Source: a virus. From it: 25,499 bases of DNA. The notes under the pieces are model-generated. The model saw nothing but the letters and a program-made list of their open reading frames with translations, had not been told where the DNA came from and ran no database searches. Of the stretch, positions 9,964-21,352 are shown piece after piece. The DNA lies in the IMG/VR virus record IMGVR_UViG_3300047470_000480, positions 1 to 25,499 of that record, one strand, 5' to 3'. Numbering within the stretch: the first letter of the stretch is position 1; each line of letters opens with the position of its first letter. Made by a program: the position numbers and the translations under genes.

Positions 9964-10532
9964 GCTGCTGCCTGCGCTTCCTTCAACAGGGCGCGTTCTG
10001 CCGCGCGCAGGGCCTGCCGGGCTTCCCGGCAGGTGCACTGGGGATGCGGGGGGAGCTGAAGTTCGCTGCGCTTGAGGTGTGCGCGGTAGCCGCGCTCGGT
10101 GCCGCAGATCGGCCGGAGCGGGGAGTGGAAGGGGTTCACCCGGCTTCCGGGGATCTCCTCGAACTCGGTGCGCCGGTTCTTCTCACTGGCGATCTTGGCG
10201 GCCTTGGCTTCCTCGTCGCGCTTGGCCTGCTCTTGCTCGCAGGTCTCGCAGGTCTCGCCGAGGGACTTGTGGCGGCTGAGGGCCTTCTCTGTGCCGCACT
10301 CGTGCGGGAGGGCGTCGGATTCGGTGATGCCAAGGGCGGCCCAGCGCTCCGGCTGGGTCTCTCCGCCCCAGATGCCGAACTCGCGGCCCTCCCGGCCCGC
10401 GCGGAGGCAGGCGAGGCGGACGGGGCAGGTGTCGCAGATCCGCAGGGCCTTGCGGACGACTCTGGTCGTGCGGCCCTTGCCGGTGTCGAACAGTCCGGGC
10501 TTGACGGCGCAGGGGAAGGCGTAGGCGGTCAC
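9960..10532 (-). CDS. WhiB-like iron-sulfur protein with two added CGTE-H-CxC modules
   Basis: 190 residues from GTG 10532, overlapping the helicase stop as GTGA. The N-terminal part is a WhiB-type transcription factor domain: C8, then ICDTCPVRLAC (C33, C36, C42) to hold a 4Fe-4S cluster, followed by the diagnostic turn GIWGG (53-57). WhiB proteins bind host sigma factor and redirect transcription. The other two thirds is unusual: CGTEKALSRHKSLGETCETC (79-98) and a second copy beginning CGTERGYRAHLKR (143-155) with CTC at 166-168. These look like a duplicated zinc-binding module. WhiB-like genes are common in actinophages, where they can interfere with host gene control. The domain call is firm; the tail function is unknown. 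Confidence 0.88.
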   Translation of the reverse strand: MTAYAFPCAVKPGLFDTGKGRTTRVVRKALRICDTCPVRLACLRAGREGREFGIWGGETQPERWAALGITESDALPHECGTEKALSRHKSLGETCETCEQEQAKRDEEAKAAKIASEKNRRTEFEEIPGSRVNPFHSPLRPICGTERGYRAHLKRSELQLPPHPQCTCREARQALRAAERALLKEAQAAA

Positions 10533-11833
10533 AGGGTCACCTCGCCGAGGACGTGCTGGGTGCCGTACCAGGGCTCCCAGGCGCAGCGCCAGTTGGTCAG
10601 GTCCATGCGTCGGGACGCGAGCATCTGCAGGGTGGCCATACCGGCGGCGACCTCGGTTTCTGAGCGGAGTAGGCCGAAGACCCAGGAGCTGTAGCGCTCG
10701 ATCGCGGAGGAGTCGGCGATGTGCTGCAGTTCCAGTCGTCCGGCCTTCTGGGCGGCGGCGACGCCCTCACGGTTGATCTGGCAGTTCAGGAACACCGGCG
10801 GCGTGTAGCGGCCGGTGGTGATGAGCGTGGACAGCTCGTTCATGATCTCGGCGATCGTTTCGTGCTTGGGTCGCCGGGCGTTGGGGGCGGGGTGCTGGAT
10901 GTGGGAGAGCTGGTCGATGATGATCGACTTCGCTCCGTAGGACTGGGCCTGCCGGATGATCGTGGTGGGGGTTCGCAGGCTGGGGTCCGGCGAGAGGACG
11001 TGCAGGCCGTCCTTCAGGTCGTCCTCGTTCTCGGCGAGCCAGGTGCGGACGCGGTCGACATCCTCGGGGGTGCAGGTGCCCTTCTGGTACTCGCGGTAGT
11101 CGACGGCGCAGATCTGGCAGGCGAGCCGGTCGTACGTCATCTGCACGCTGTTCTCCAGCGTGTACAGGACGGTGACGCGGCCGCGCTTCCACTCCGTGTG
11201 TGCGACGTGGGTGGCGCTGAACGACTTGGCGCCCTTGGGCGGAGCGCACCAGGCGCAGATCTCGCCGTCGTGGACGCCCAGGGTGTGCTTGTCGACGGCC
11301 TCCATGCCGACGGACATGCCGCTGATGACCTTGGGGGCGGCCGCTCGTTGGTCGTAGCGGGAGAGGCTGTCGCGCAGGCCTTGGACGCCCTCGACCTCGT
11401 CCTTGCGGTTGCGGACCGACATGGACAGCTGTTGGAAGGAGGCGGCGGCCCGGTGGACGGCTTCGACGCGCTCGTGCGGCTCGGAGCCCGCCATCTCGAC
11501 GGCGACTTCGCGCTGCAGGCGCTGGGACTCGGCGAGGACGTACTGGGACTGCAGGTACTCGATGGCCGGGCCGACGTCGTCGAGTTCCAGGTCCTCGTCG
11601 GGCAGGGCGATGTTGCACTGCTCCAGCCGGTGGCCCCACTGCTCCGTGAGGAGTTCGCGGGAGGGGGCCTTGTTCCGGCCGGAGCGGTAGAAGTACGAGA
11701 CGGCCCAGTCGACGACGTCGCGCATGCCGGTCGTCGGAATGCACGCCGGTTCCAGGCCGGTGTCGGCCAGCTGCTCCAGCGCGTCTACGTCGGTGAGGCT
11801 CGCGTAGAGGACGGTCTCTGCGTGCATGGTCAC
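10529..11833 (-). CDS. DnaB-like replicative helicase (RecA-fold ATPase)
   Basis: 434 residues from GTG 11833, which overlaps the LuxR-gene stop (GTGA) and has AGGTGG 7 nt upstream; ATG 11827 is an alternative. A helical N-terminal region (about 1-140) precedes a RecA-type core. Walker A is APPKGAKS (197-204), atypical because the residue before the lysine is Ala rather than Gly. A catalytic Glu is likely in LYTLENSVQ (E227), Walker B is SIIIDQ (D307), and the sensor glutamine is in FLNCQINREG (Q352). This layout matches phage DnaB/Twinkle-type hexameric helicases. A DnaC-like loader is encoded upstream and a primase downstream, so it is the best candidate for the fork helicase. A non-helicase RecA paralogue is possible. 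Confidence 0.82.
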   Translation of the reverse strand: MTMHAETVLYASLTDVDALEQLADTGLEPACIPTTGMRDVVDWAVSYFYRSGRNKAPSRELLTEQWGHRLEQCNIALPDEDLELDDVGPAIEYLQSQYVLAESQRLQREVAVEMAGSEPHERVEAVHRAAASFQQLSMSVRNRKDEVEGVQGLRDSLSRYDQRAAAPKVISGMSVGMEAVDKHTLGVHDGEICAWCAPPKGAKSFSATHVAHTEWKRGRVTVLYTLENSVQMTYDRLACQICAVDYREYQKGTCTPEDVDRVRTWLAENEDDLKDGLHVLSPDPSLRTPTTIIRQAQSYGAKSIIIDQLSHIQHPAPNARRPKHETIAEIMNELSTLITTGRYTPPVFLNCQINREGVAAAQKAGRLELQHIADSSAIERYSSWVFGLLRSETEVAAGMATLQMLASRRMDLTNWRCAWEPWYGTQHVLGEVTL

Positions 11834-12660: not shown

Positions 12661-13512
12661 TCATACCGCCGTGATGGGTCGAGCCAGGCCAAGGTCGGCT
12701 TCCTGGCGAGTGAGTTCGCGTCGCGCGGGCCTGTAGTCGGCGCCGGTGACCTCGATGAAGTCAGCGGCCTCGGTGAGTAGGCTCATCGCGTAGACGCCGT
12801 ACCCCGACTGGATCTCCTGTGGGGTGAGGTTCGTGGTGAAGACCGTGGGGGCTGCGTCGGCGACGCGGGAGCGGACGATCTGGTCGACCATCGACTCGAC
12901 CATCTCGATCCGGCCCTTGTTCTCCTTGCCCCAGTCGTCGATGGCGAGGACGTCCACGTTGCGTACGCGGCGCGTCCACTGCTCCCGCTCTTCCTTGTCT
13001 CTCCAGCTGGAGGTGAAGAGGTCGATCACCTCGTTGAACTGGGAGAAGTGGACCTGGAAGCCGTTGGCCATGAGGAACTTGGACAGCAGGGCGAGCAGGA
13101 GCGTCTTGCCGGTGCCGGGGGTCTTGGACCAGAGGATGAGGTTGCGTCCGGCGGCGATGTTGCGGGCGGCCTGCAGGGCGTAGCTCATGACCTGGTCGAC
13201 GACGGGCTGGGGAACGGTCTTGACGTCGTCCCAGCCCAGGCGCTGATAGTTCAGCGGGATGCCTGCGTTGAGGAACCACAGGTGCATGAGCCACTGGTGG
13301 GAGCAGTGGCAGTCGTAGGTGACGATGTCGCTGGTGCGGCGGCCAGCGTCGTCGTCGGCGTACCAGCGGTAGGTGCGGCCGTCGCGCTTCAGGCACGTCA
13401 GGCAGGAGTCCTTGGGACTGGCCCACAGGCGAGGGCGAGAGGCCTTGAGCCGCTCGAAGTCCGGGTTGGACAGCGGATGGCAGGACGGGGGAGGGATCGG
13501 GCGGTGTCTCAA
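12661..13512 (-). CDS. DnaC-type AAA+ helicase loader
   Basis: 283 residues from TTG 13512, chosen because AAGGA precedes it by 8 nt and the arrangement copies the dnaE start. An N-terminal cysteine cluster (CLTC at 37-40 and CHC at 68-70) suggests a zinc-binding domain as in DnaC/DnaI, which contacts the helicase. The AAA+ core has Walker A SKTPGTGKT (129-137), Walker B VLAIDDWG (188-195) and sensor-1 TVFTTNLTP (223-231). Such proteins use ATP to open and place the DnaB ring on single-stranded DNA. The helicase gene two genes downstream is the likely partner. The start lies in a hairpin that also hides the ribosome-binding site, implying regulated translation. Confidence 0.9.
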   Translation of the reverse strand: MRHRPIPPPSCHPLSNPDFERLKASRPRLWASPKDSCLTCLKRDGRTYRWYADDDAGRRTSDIVTYDCHCSHQWLMHLWFLNAGIPLNYQRLGWDDVKTVPQPVVDQVMSYALQAARNIAAGRNLILWSKTPGTGKTLLLALLSKFLMANGFQVHFSQFNEVIDLFTSSWRDKEEREQWTRRVRNVDVLAIDDWGKENKGRIEMVESMVDQIVRSRVADAAPTVFTTNLTPQEIQSGYGVYAMSLLTEAADFIEVTGADYRPARRELTRQEADLGLARPITAV

Positions 13513-18641: not shown

Positions 18642-18661
18642 CTGCTCATGGCGGTGAACAG
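18642..18661 (-). promoter_or_regulatory. CCGCCA-loop hairpin in the dinG-like leader
   Basis: Minus strand CTGTTCA-CCGCCA-TGAGCAG, a 7-bp stem with one G-U pair. It contains the alternative ATG at 18649. It lies 26 nt upstream of the chosen start at 18616. Confidence 0.65.
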
Positions 18662-18679
18662 GAAAGTTCTGGCGGCGAG

Positions 18680-18719
18680 CGCGACGCTACACAGCGCCCC
18701 AGGGCGAAGTCGCGTTTTT
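18680..18719 (+). terminator. Hairpin followed by T5, possible rightward terminator
   Basis: CGCGAC (18680-18685) pairs with GTCGCG (18709-18714), a small CGCCC/GGGCG hairpin fills the loop, and five T residues follow (18715-18719). It has the form of an intrinsic terminator for rightward RNA, although no rightward gene ends here. On the leftward strand the same sequence holds a TAGCGT (18689-18684) that could be a -10 for the helicase gene. Confidence 0.3.
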
Positions 18720-19006
18720 CGTCCGGCGGATTTTCTGGCCGGGCCGACGGGCCGTCAGGAAGGCGCGCTCACAGGTTTCATGCGCGGGGTCCGTGCATTG
18801 AGCACCCGGGAGGGACTAGGGTGGCCGACGCGACCATCGTCGGTACCGCCCCCGGCGGTCGCGCATGGCTCCAGAAACACCAACGGCCGCCTTACGGGAT
18901 CTCCATCCCTTGGCGGCCGCCCGACAGAGACTTTGGCCGGTCAGCCTGTCGGTGGGGCCAACAACCTCATACCCACTGAAGATCCACGATCCTGGAGGTC
19001 GCTGGC

Positions 19007-19300
19007 ATGGGCCAGCCTACCCAAAAAACACCCTCGGTGTACACGACCCGAGGCACAGACACGCCGCCGCAGGCCAGCGCCCGCAGCCCGTTCGGGACGC
19101 GGCTGTCCTTTTCGGCCCCCGATGATGTTCAATGTCTTCCAGACCGGGCCCGCCAGCCTGGCACCACCACCACAGACCACCCCCGGGCACGCGTGTGCCC
19201 GAACCCGCCAAGGGGGCTGACGATGTCTCACGAACTTGCTGCAGAAAGGCTTGAGGGGCGCCCGGAGACCAACATCTCCGTGACGCCCCTCGCCGCATAA
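19007..19300 (+). CDS. Possible small gene (97 aa) or short leader ORF
   Basis: ATG 19007 has a full GGAGGT seven bases upstream, the best Shine-Dalgarno in the region. The product is Pro/Thr/Arg-rich with no recognisable fold, and third-position GC is lower than in neighbouring genes. An internal in-frame ATG at 19223 has its own AAGGGGG and would encode a 25-residue peptide beginning MSHELAAERLEGRPETNISV. The start ATG sits exactly in the loop of a 6-bp hairpin (19001-19016), and the C-terminal codons form the 19253-19291 hairpin. Either a real early gene or a leader ORF controlling the downstream HTH gene; evidence is modest. Confidence 0.35.
   Translation: MGQPTQKTPSVYTTRGTDTPPQASARSPFGTRLSFSAPDDVQCLPDRARQPGTTTTDHPRARVCPNPPRGLTMSHELAAERLEGRPETNISVTPLAA
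19144..19161 (+). promoter_or_regulatory. Rightward CCGCCA-loop hairpin
   Basis: Plus strand CCGGGC-CCGCCA-GCCTGG, 6 bp with one G-U pair. It is the only well-formed family member in the rightward orientation and lies ahead of the 19462 gene, within the possible ORF 19007-19300. Confidence 0.5.
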
Positions 19301-19327
19301 CGGCCCTGCCTGGGCCGGGGGAAGCCG

Positions 19328-19373
19328 TCTCCGCCAAGAGCGGACTTCCCGGGAAGAACGTGAAGGTTCTTCC
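19328..19373 (+). promoter_or_regulatory. Cascade of hairpins upstream of the rightward HTH gene
   Basis: Contains a 15-nt match to the gene 15661-16401 leader (19328-19342), TCCGC-CAAGA-GCGGA (19330-19344), a perfect 12-bp palindrome CTTCCCGGGAAG (19345-19356), and GGAAGAAC-GTGAAG-GTTCTTCC (19352-19373). The last two share bases and cannot form together, as in attenuator-type switches. An alternative GTG start at 19360 lies precisely in the last loop. Confidence 0.45.
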
Positions 19374-19461
19374 GCCAGGCGACGCGACATTTTCGGTCAG
19401 ACCATCGCCAACACGGTGGTTTGGCCCTCGACCTCGAAGTCATAGAAAGGGCACACCCGCC

Positions 19462-20880
19462 GTGCCAGAGCAGTCTACGGGCCTCGCACCCGTGCCGCAT
19501 GCCAGCCGTGGCGAAAATCTCGGCCAAGTTCAGGTGACCGCGCCAACGACGAGCGCTCCCTGGCTTGATGATCTTCACCCCAAGCACTGGATTCGCCGGT
19601 TCCCCACCCTCTCGCCGTACATGACGGTCCTGATGGACAAGGGCGACGTCGAACTGCGCTACGGATCTACCGACCGCTCCAGCAGCAAGACCGCGAAGTC
19701 CAACCACCGGCACGCCGCCACGGCGGCTGCTGCTGCTGGCTGTGCTCGCTTCGGCTGGAACGGGGGCCAGTTCGTCGAGGCCAACCTGGACTGCCCGTCG
19801 GCGGTGGGCCGCCACGCCCGCCGGATGATGCACCTCAAGGGCCGCGAGCACGCCATCGGCTACCTGGACCGTGTCTGGGAACGTGCGGTCGAGCACGTCG
19901 GCACCCGGACCATGATCGCCTCGCGCCAGGACTCCGTCTTCGACCTGATCGCGCTGCGGGACAAGATCGGCCAGGCCGTCTGGCGCGGTACGGCAGGTTC
20001 GACGGCGCTGCGCGTGCTCATGGCCTTCTGGGAGACCGGCAGCAAGGTCGGTGGCCGGATCTTCGCGCTGTCCTACCGTGACGCCGCTGAGCAGGCCGGG
20101 TGCACCGCCCGCACGGCCTACCTCGCGGTGAAGAGGCGGCTGGAGGGCGTCTGGGTGCGGCTGCTGGAGTCGGGCAAGGGCGAGGAGGCTTCCACCTGGA
20201 TGCTGCTCGACGGCACCGGTTCTCAGCAACGACCCACCTTCATGGGGGCGCAGCCCAAGGGGGGCACTCAGAGTGTGTCGTCGGTGAGAAACGGTGAGCT
20301 CGACGCCGCCGTCGTTGCCCACCTGATGTCCCTGGACGCCTTCGCCCACCGGGGCCTGGGTGCCTCTTCGCTCAAGATCCTCGCCGCGCTCCGCCTGCAG
20401 GACTGCCAGACCGTGAAGGACCTGATCGAGTCCGCCATGCTCAGCCAGTCCACGGTCTACCGGAAGCTCTCCTGCCTCTCGGAGCACGGCCTGGTCGTCA
20501 AGAACGGCGAGGTCTGGGAGCTCACTGAGACGGCCTACGAGGCCCTGGCAGGGGCCTGGGAGGGCTGGGACACCGTCGCCGCCGAGATCGGCACGTACGG
20601 GACCGCCTGGCGCCGCCAGCAGCGTCACAAGGACGAGCGCGCCGTCTACCACGGCATGGTCCTCCCCCGCTTCCGGGAGCGCCGTGCGGCCGACGTGATT
20701 CCGATCCGGGGGGATGAGGTCGAGCCGGACTGGGTAGCCGACGGCTGTGCCATCGACCCCGTCACCGGCGAGATCATCGAGGACCTCGTAGTGGCGTCAG
20801 ATGGCCGGTTCCTGCTGGTAGTTGATGAGCTGGACTACGACGAACTGCTCCGCCGCAATGCCCTCGCCTGCGCAGCATGA
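19462..20880 (+). CDS. DNA-binding protein with two HTH domains, candidate replication initiator or regulator
   Basis: 472 residues from GTG 19462 (GAAAGG upstream, long spacer); a GTG at 19360 would add 34 residues but lies inside a hairpin. The N-terminal 180 residues include PWLDDLHPKHWIRRF and MMHLKGREHAIGYLDRVW and match nothing I can name. A helix-turn-helix appears at about 203-233 (LSYRDAAEQAGCTARTAYLA), and a winged helix at about 318-358 (LIESAMLSQSTVYRKLSCLS, then EHGLVVKNGEVWELTE). Two wHTH domains behind a helical N-domain recall plasmid and phage initiators; a transcription factor is equally possible. Residues about 253-273, the linker between the HTHs, are encoded by the inverted-repeat copy 20220-20280. 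The acidic C-terminus contains DPVTGEIIEDL. It is transcribed opposite to the replication block. Confidence 0.8.
   Translation: MPEQSTGLAPVPHASRGENLGQVQVTAPTTSAPWLDDLHPKHWIRRFPTLSPYMTVLMDKGDVELRYGSTDRSSSKTAKSNHRHAATAAAAAGCARFGWNGGQFVEANLDCPSAVGRHARRMMHLKGREHAIGYLDRVWERAVEHVGTRTMIASRQDSVFDLIALRDKIGQAVWRGTAGSTALRVLMAFWETGSKVGGRIFALSYRDAAEQAGCTARTAYLAVKRRLEGVWVRLLESGKGEEASTWMLLDGTGSQQRPTFMGAQPKGGTQSVSSVRNGELDAAVVAHLMSLDAFAHRGLGASSLKILAALRLQDCQTVKDLIESAMLSQSTVYRKLSCLSEHGLVVKNGEVWELTETAYEALAGAWEGWDTVAAEIGTYGTAWRRQQRHKDERAVYHGMVLPRFRERRAADVIPIRGDEVEPDWVADGCAIDPVTGEIIEDLVVASDGRFLLVVDELDYDELLRRNALACAA
20220..20280 (+). repeat. Left arm of a long inverted repeat (inside the HTH gene)
   Basis: Bases 20220-20268 are the exact reverse complement of 21265-21313 (49 of 49). 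After a two-for-one base difference, ten more bases match (20271-20280 with 21254-21263). A TGAGAA block at 20285-20290 also aligns with 21244-21249. This arm codes for the linker containing QQRPTFMGAQPKGGT. Confidence 0.9.
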
Positions 20881-20925
20881 TCCCTCCAGCCACGAATAGT
20901 CGCTGATCAGACGGCATACATGGCC

Positions 20926-20961
20926 TTGTCAGTCTTCTCCCCGTCCCTTAGCGTGCTCAGC
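20926..20961 (+). promoter_or_regulatory. Rightward promoter TTGTCA-N17-TAGCGT, leaderless type
   Basis: -35 TTGTCA (20926-20931), 17-nt spacer, -10 TAGCGT (20949-20954). Standard spacing puts the transcription start at about 20961, directly before the ATG at 20962, and there is no ribosome-binding site. This matches the leaderless mRNAs common in actinobacteria. Confidence 0.65.
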
Positions 20962-21216
20962 ATGCAGCGACCGACTCCCGCCACGGGCTGCCTTGACAAA
21001 GAGGACGCCTACGCCAGCCTCCCTGGCATACGCAAGCACCTGAAGTACCGAGGACTGACCAAAGATCCCCACGCCATGTGCGCCGAGGTGAGCAGGTATG
21101 GCGACGGGTGGGCCGTGTACATCGGATTCCAGGACTCCGTCGACCTCACAGAGGCCATGAAAGCCCTCGGCGTCAGCGCAGAATCCGCCGTCGCCGCCCT
21201 CGGAGCAGCAGCCTGA
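20962..21216 (+). CDS. Small hypothetical protein (84 aa)
   Basis: ATG 20962 is chosen because the promoter's predicted start point lies one base upstream; the in-frame ATG at 20920 lies before the promoter. The product has two helical stretches and a central beta-like segment (HAMCAEVSRYGDGWAVYIGF), then an alanine-rich helix (SAESAVAALGAAA). It is likely a small globular protein. No family recognised. A separate strong promoter suggests independent, possibly immediate-early expression. It may be a host-takeover protein or a small regulator, but nothing proves this. Confidence 0.65.
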   Translation: MQRPTPATGCLDKEDAYASLPGIRKHLKYRGLTKDPHAMCAEVSRYGDGWAVYIGFQDSVDLTEAMKALGVSAESAVAALGAAA

Positions 21217-21220
21217 ACCC

Positions 21221-21238
21221 AAAAAAGGCCTCTGACCT
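21221..21238 (-). terminator. Intrinsic-type terminator for leftward transcription
   Basis: Minus strand AGGTC-AGA-GGCCT followed by five further T residues (six T in all, one paired); one G-U pair in the stem. It lies about 230 nt past the stop of the SNF2-like helicase gene and just beyond the end of the convergent 84-aa gene, where a leftward terminator would prevent head-on transcription. Confidence 0.45.
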
Positions 21239-21253
21239 GGGGATTCTCAGGTT

Positions 21254-21313
21254 CGACACACTCAAGTGCCCCCCTTGGGCTGCGCCCCCATGAAGGTGGG
21301 TCGTTGCTGAGAA
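21254..21313 (-). repeat. Right arm of the long inverted repeat (intergenic)
   Basis: Reverse complement of 20220-20280. Read leftward it would encode the same QQRPTFMGAQPKGGT peptide but meets a stop at once, and no start or flanking homology makes it a gene. Read rightward, it is antisense to the HTH mRNA. Confidence 0.9.
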
Positions 21314-21352
21314 AGTCGGTCATCTGTCGGGTTAGCGAAGTAGCCTCATGCC

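Follow-up and report, generated by a model that had tools for sequence, protein, structure and literature searches.

A palindromic element within and downstream of an HTH gene as a candidate replication origin of Streptomyces phage-plasmids

The window, the whole 25,499-bp stretch analyzed here (an IMG/VR virus record), contains an inverted repeat whose two arms are copies of one element of about 70 bp. One copy lies within an HTH gene, in the codons of a linker between two winged-helix domains, and the other lies between convergent genes. By analogy with known replicons, we consider it somewhat probable that each arm is a palindromic site bound by the HTH product, which would be the replication initiator of a phage-plasmid, and that the element is its origin or a central component of that origin.

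Results

The inverted repeat and its palindromic arms

The initial annotation described a perfect inverted repeat of 49 bp, extending to about 60 bp, with one arm coding and the other non-coding, and both points were confirmed. A repeat finder returned exact reverse complements of 49 nt with a spacing of 996 nt (Table 1). Gapped alignment extended the repeat to 60–61 nt (20,220–20,280 and 21,254–21,313) when a 1-nt indel and a single mismatch were allowed. The longest other exact complementary stretches near the repeat were only 12–14 nt, and nothing comparable was found elsewhere in the window. When a 26-mer from the arm was searched with a tolerance of three mismatches, it occurred at only these two places in the window and at none in 100 shuffles. 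The full arm is longer than the repeat (70–71 nt, from TTCTCAG to TGAGAA), and each arm is itself a palindrome.

Table 1 Features of the window (strand relative to the sequence as given)
Feature	Position	Strand	Evidence
DnaB-like helicase	10529..11833	-	Pfam DnaB_C
IstB-family ATPase, putatively a DnaC-type helicase loader	12661..13512	-	Pfam IstB_IS21
HTH gene, 472 aa, candidate replication initiator, two winged-helix domains	19462..20880	+	Open frame, Pfam, AlphaFold2
In-gene palindromic element copy, encoding linker residues about 253–277	20220..20290	+	Repeat, dyad scan, alignment, covariation
Perfect 49-nt inverted-repeat arm 1	20220..20268	+	Repeat finder
Left half-site TTCTCAGCAACGACCCA, in-gene copy	20220..20236	+	Alignment of arms; dyad scan
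Core mini-hairpin GGC-GCA-GCC	20247..20255	+	Covariation analysis, helix 3
Right half-site TGTGTCGTCGGTGAGAA, in-gene copy	20274..20290	+	Dyad scan; alignment
98-aa ORF between the arms, matching no family; pRLB1-9.1 has an annotated CDS at the equivalent place	20920..21216	+	
Intergenic element copy, inverted relative to the gene	21244..21313	-	Repeat, alignment; found in 7/7 phages
Perfect 49-nt inverted-repeat arm 2	21265..21313	-	Repeat finder

The element is a nested palindrome, in which TTCTCAGC-N3-GACACA is followed by a G-rich core with the mini-hairpin and then by TGTGTC-N3-GCTGAGAA. In the dyad scan, 15 of the 18 outer bases were symmetric. As single-stranded DNA, the gene arm folds at −22.7 kcal/mol (z = −4.0); the intergenic arm of the window folds less strongly (z = −1.45), and the z scores across element copies range from about −1.3 to −5. 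Each phage copy has one inverted pair of two-box half-sites, forming a long inverted repeat of short boxes. A direct iteron array is absent from the phages, extra GTCTCA repeats being found only in plasmid L009. No AT-rich tract was found near either copy in the window, where the GC content is 55–74% per 100 bp. In L009 (plasmid pSTRVI02, 5623–5690), the extra GTCTCA(C) repeats are in frame directly before the palindrome and resemble an in-gene iteron array.

Distribution of the element among phages and plasmids

A DNA search identified one plasmid, pRLB1-9.1 (Streptomyces sp. RLB1-9, 154 kb), which matches 20,217–21,320 at 73% on the nucleotide level and has the inverted repeat at the equivalent places. 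Its annotation, with an HK97-type capsid, a baseplate J protein, ParA, and Pol III alpha, marks it as a phage-plasmid. The phage collection held no close DNA relatives of the window, and an exact 20-mer of the window core had no match in the viral contigs. A protein-query scan of these contigs with the window sequence alone gave no match, but an alignment query succeeded: four contigs (L023, L024, L027, and L028) have both arms about 1 kb apart and oriented as in the window. L025 and L026 are identical to L024 at the site, and L027 is the RLB1-9 plasmid again. Five distinct phages including the window thus keep both arms in a constant orientation, and the inverted form was seen in none of them. 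The amino acid identity of the four two-arm relatives is 57–68%.

Two more distant phages of ~156 kb each, L029 and L030, have the intergenic arm only, and the linker of their HTH protein is short and without the element (LLDGPKGAVEAGGIDAAV in L029). Searches of whole records found two copies in pRLB1-9.1 and one in L029, and a profile search found a single intergenic copy in L030. All seven phages therefore have the intergenic copy, which rules against a stray remnant; its absence from relatives, which the initial annotation had proposed to look for, was not seen among the close phages.

Homologs of the HTH protein occur in 22 Streptomyces or Kitasatospora plasmids, including pRLB1-9.1. In six of them (L004–L009), the linker DNA bears a related dyad, mostly GTCTCAC..CTGGnCCAC..core..GTGGnCCAG..GTGAGAC, and a second copy is absent within about 5 kb. 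In a distant subfamily, the dyad scan found a dyad of its own kind at the same place in L011 (GTGCnCGnCCGGGACAC) and L014, and L012 and L013 are similar in sequence. Because single-copy relatives exist, a single copy is enough, and what is conserved is the element and not the arm–arm pair.

Among 2.9 million viral contigs, a 19-mer of the core was confined to this group. The one match in the genome-contig scan, to a Pseudomonadota MAG, was weak and probably spurious. In viral contig L031 (6954–7091), the in-gene element has its G-rich core reversed between unchanged outer boxes, as if flipped in place. Distant homologs of about 575–600 aa were also observed in Rhodococcus plasmids (L044, L045, L046, and L058), in three of four cases near ParA, and one such 41-kb plasmid, which encodes both a distant homolog and ParA, has no annotated Rep. 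The scan found no convincing mid-gene dyad in the three Rhodococcus homologs tested; the element may therefore be confined to the homologs from Streptomycetaceae.

Covariation and nucleotide-level constraint

The palindrome shows covariation between its two sides. In an alignment of 18 element copies and 25 pairs, with related sequences counted as independent, 11 of the 25 pairs had double changes, 84% of cells were paired, and 49 cells were double-changed, as compared with 8.4 pairs, 75%, and 21.8 cells in shuffled controls. The covariation score was 0.256 versus 0.107 for the shuffles, and it fell to 0.07 or less when the partner was shifted by one column. RNAalifold finds the hairpin unaided. 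The boxes switch on both sides together, from TTCTCA to GTCTCA and from GACACA to GAACA or GnCCAC. In the core mini-hairpin, all cells (100%) are paired, with compensatory G-C to C-G changes, the plasmids pairing as GCC-NNN-GGC. Judged from these alignments, folding is conserved inside the individual arms and not from arm to arm, and the element is most likely palindromic through selection. A protein-bound dyad and a hairpin would both produce such covariation, and the element may be read either in double-stranded form or as a cruciform.

The initial annotation had suggested that the linker-coding arm is under selection at the nucleotide level, and codon conservation supports this. Synonymous constraint in the plasmid homologs is strongest in the linker: the conservation in linker windows was 0.95 versus 0.57 overall with five homologs, and 0.86 versus 0.55 with seven. 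The corresponding values in the distant subfamily were 0.89 and 0.61. Among the close phages, the linker was not one of the most synonymously constrained windows. The dyad scores of single genes were near the codon-shuffled maxima; the case for the palindrome depends on its repeated occurrence at one position and on the covariation.

Identity of the two arms in the window

The arms are more similar within a genome (mean identity, 0.88) than between genomes (0.80), a result reached by 4 of 120 permutations. Other genomes retain arm-specific differences, with GGGGGGGCA in the gene and GGGGGGTCA in the intergenic copy. The intergenic arm of the window is of the gene type; its last 20 nt (GAGTGTGTCGAACCTGAGAA) are equal to the L028 gene arm, unlike other intergenic arms. 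As its right half matches a gene-type arm, the source of the perfect identity was probably a gene-type arm, and a recent gene-to-intergenic conversion is the simplest reading of these sequences. The copying between arms suspected in the initial annotation is thus supported.

The HTH protein and its genomic context

The HTH gene most likely starts at the GTG codon at 19,462, a start position conserved in L029 and L030. The second domain matched Pfam HTH_IclR and HTH_5 over the cut-off. In the AlphaFold2 model, which is weak overall (mean pLDDT, 59), the winged helices span residues ~155–248 and 300–363, and a low-confidence linker (251–299) covers the element-encoded part. The linker encoded by the element is predicted to be disordered. 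The structural matches were generic winged helices, the second domain being MarR/ArsR/IclR-like; no Rep initiator was among the fold matches listed for this poor model. The protein had no match to the lambda O family in Pfam, PHROGs, or NCBIfam.

The minus strand of the window carries a replication module with a DnaB-like helicase, an IstB-type ATPase, Pol III alpha, RecA, a 5′–3′ exonuclease, and two helicases. No other initiator is named in the annotation of pRLB1-9.1, which was examined for the whole plasmid except about 4.2 kb; there, the HTH gene is separated by about 16 kb from ParA and the gene that follows ParA.

Discussion

Proposed role of the element

Here, we propose how the HTH protein and the element may act in initiation. 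A half-site has two boxes, which the pair of winged-helix domains would recognize, and the two half-sites would face each other across the G-rich, hairpin-forming core. With one copy lying in the DNA of the predicted disordered linker, the protein and its site would share sequence. The second, inverted copy downstream may be redundant or regulatory; for example, a DNA loop may join both sites (handcuffing) and limit initiation. Binding by the HTH protein, origin function, and looping are what we infer from the conservation of the site and its setting. As a counterpoint to an origin, the resemblance of the second winged helix to MarR/ArsR/IclR regulators also fits a repressor. The lack of an AT-rich tract near either copy, the lack of direct iterons in the phages, and the modest synonymous constraint on the linker in the close phages likewise speak against an origin. 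In addition, a conserved non-coding region lies upstream of the HTH gene (18,650–19,460), with blocks such as GATGATGTTCAATG and GACGCGACCTA..CGGTC.GACCATCGCC in all or most relatives. This region could be the true origin instead, or a regulatory region.

A wider proposal, to which we give somewhat less than an even chance, is that an undescribed initiator family of actinobacterial phages and plasmids reads a hairpin-forming palindrome in its own linker codons. The inverted partner in phage-plasmids, 1 kb away, would co-evolve with the in-gene site by gene conversion, and the site could move from the gene to the intergenic position with loss of the linker. If the origin reading is true, the initiator and origin of little-studied large Streptomyces phage-plasmids would be identified, as would those of several large Streptomyces plasmids without an initiator among the annotated genes near the HTH gene. 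The dual-use sequence would provide a natural test, with a single stretch of bases acting as both protein linker and DNA site and with the linker gone where the site is kept elsewhere. A small vector might also be built from the HTH gene and the element.

Alternative explanations

The HTH protein could instead be a regulator that represses its own gene through the in-gene and downstream sites as operators, looping the DNA between them. The MarR/ArsR/IclR-like second domain is in accordance with this, the two dyad sites about 1 kb apart flank the 3′ half of the HTH gene, and the site sequence follows the protein subfamily. Nevertheless, we consider this explanation unlikely. The HTH gene has its promoter at neither of the two sites. 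The plasmids have one mid-gene site only and L029 and L030 one downstream site only, so a requirement for looping is not conserved. Copies dispersed over the genome were not found either, each ~155-kb genome having one or two.

A centromere-like or architectural site bound by the HTH protein, with a role in partition, packaging, or dimer control, appears improbable. ParA genes are within a few kilobases of the HTH gene in several plasmids, but ParA is about 16 kb distant in pRLB1-9.1, and the plasmid centromere-binding protein (4rs8) found among the structural matches was matched as a generic winged helix.

We assign little probability to a function at the RNA level, in which the palindrome would be an RNA hairpin or the intergenic arm would give an antisense RNA to the HTH mRNA. 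Antisense pairing, an option raised in the initial annotation, requires both arms, yet both single-arm states occur: plasmids lack a second arm within about 5 kb, and L029 and L030 lack the in-gene target. A giant stem formed by both arms in one transcript, another such option, is at odds with the single-arm relatives and with the conserved folding inside each arm. An RNA stem would show the same pair covariation, and a hairpin between convergent genes could serve as a two-way terminator. However, the in-gene element of L031 is in the opposite orientation, an Rfam search gave no match, and no sigma-70-like promoter was found at the intergenic arm, although this last test is weak for Streptomyces.

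Inversion of the 1-kb segment by recombination between the arms is very improbable. It would, as previously noted, truncate the HTH protein after residue 269 (...GGC ACT TGA, when read from the GTG start). The arms are long, inverted, and nearly identical, and their higher similarity within than between genomes (0.88 versus 0.80) fits occasional arm recombination. Against this, all five distinct two-arm phage assemblies have one orientation, in which minor forms would be invisible; single-arm relatives exist; and no recombinase was identified among the window ORFs examined. Single-copy relatives of both kinds, together with the constant orientation, leave both antisense RNA and programmed inversion poorly supported.

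It is likewise very doubtful that the pair is without function, the intergenic arm being a remnant copied from an HTH gene by recombination: the L028-type end does point to copying from a gene-type arm, so a related gene is a probable source of the perfect identity, but the intergenic copy occurs in 7/7 phages and is the sole copy in L029 and L030, where paired changes keep the palindrome.

Comparison with known systems

The lambda initiator binds to sites in ori-lambda, midway along its own gene O, and additional sites there lengthen the protein in a portion not thought to contact DNA (PMC7466680). The present element, a conserved palindrome, is comparable in its position in mid-gene, within a predicted disordered linker, and in accompanying a phage replication module with helicase functions. 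Ori-lambda has direct iterons and an AT-rich tract, whereas here there is one long palindrome with a GC-rich core; some phages here also have a second, inverted copy outside the gene, and no family link to O was detected. Since direct iterons and an AT-rich tract were looked for and not found, we do not place the element among lambda-type origins.

In the Streptomyces theta plasmid pWTY27, the site bound by RepA is a long inverted repeat of 105 bp (PMC3583192). The resemblance is in site architecture, the HTH gene being a putative rep: both sites are long inverted repeats of short boxes in both orientations with a proposed stem-loop, in a Streptomyces host. The pWTY27 site, unlike the in-gene copy described here, is outside the gene and adjoins repAB.

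By their description, pSLA2-type linear replicons of Streptomyces are also similar, with a phage-like origin at or within a Rep gene. The origin of these replicons is inside rep1. One paper calls rep1 the iteron of the rep2 helicase (PMC13152386).

Mycobacterial RepA-dependent extrachromosomal prophages belong to temperate actinophages that persist as plasmids by means of parABS and an initiator containing an HTH (PMC7157519). The likeness is again one of description; by contrast with the present element, no repeated motif was found at their origins, and one predicted HTH is reported.

In pRLB1-9.1 itself (69,862–71,032; L042, 19,862–21,032), an ATP-grasp-modified RiPP precursor (tgmA) and its ATP-grasp enzyme are annotated, a possible peptide cargo on a phage.
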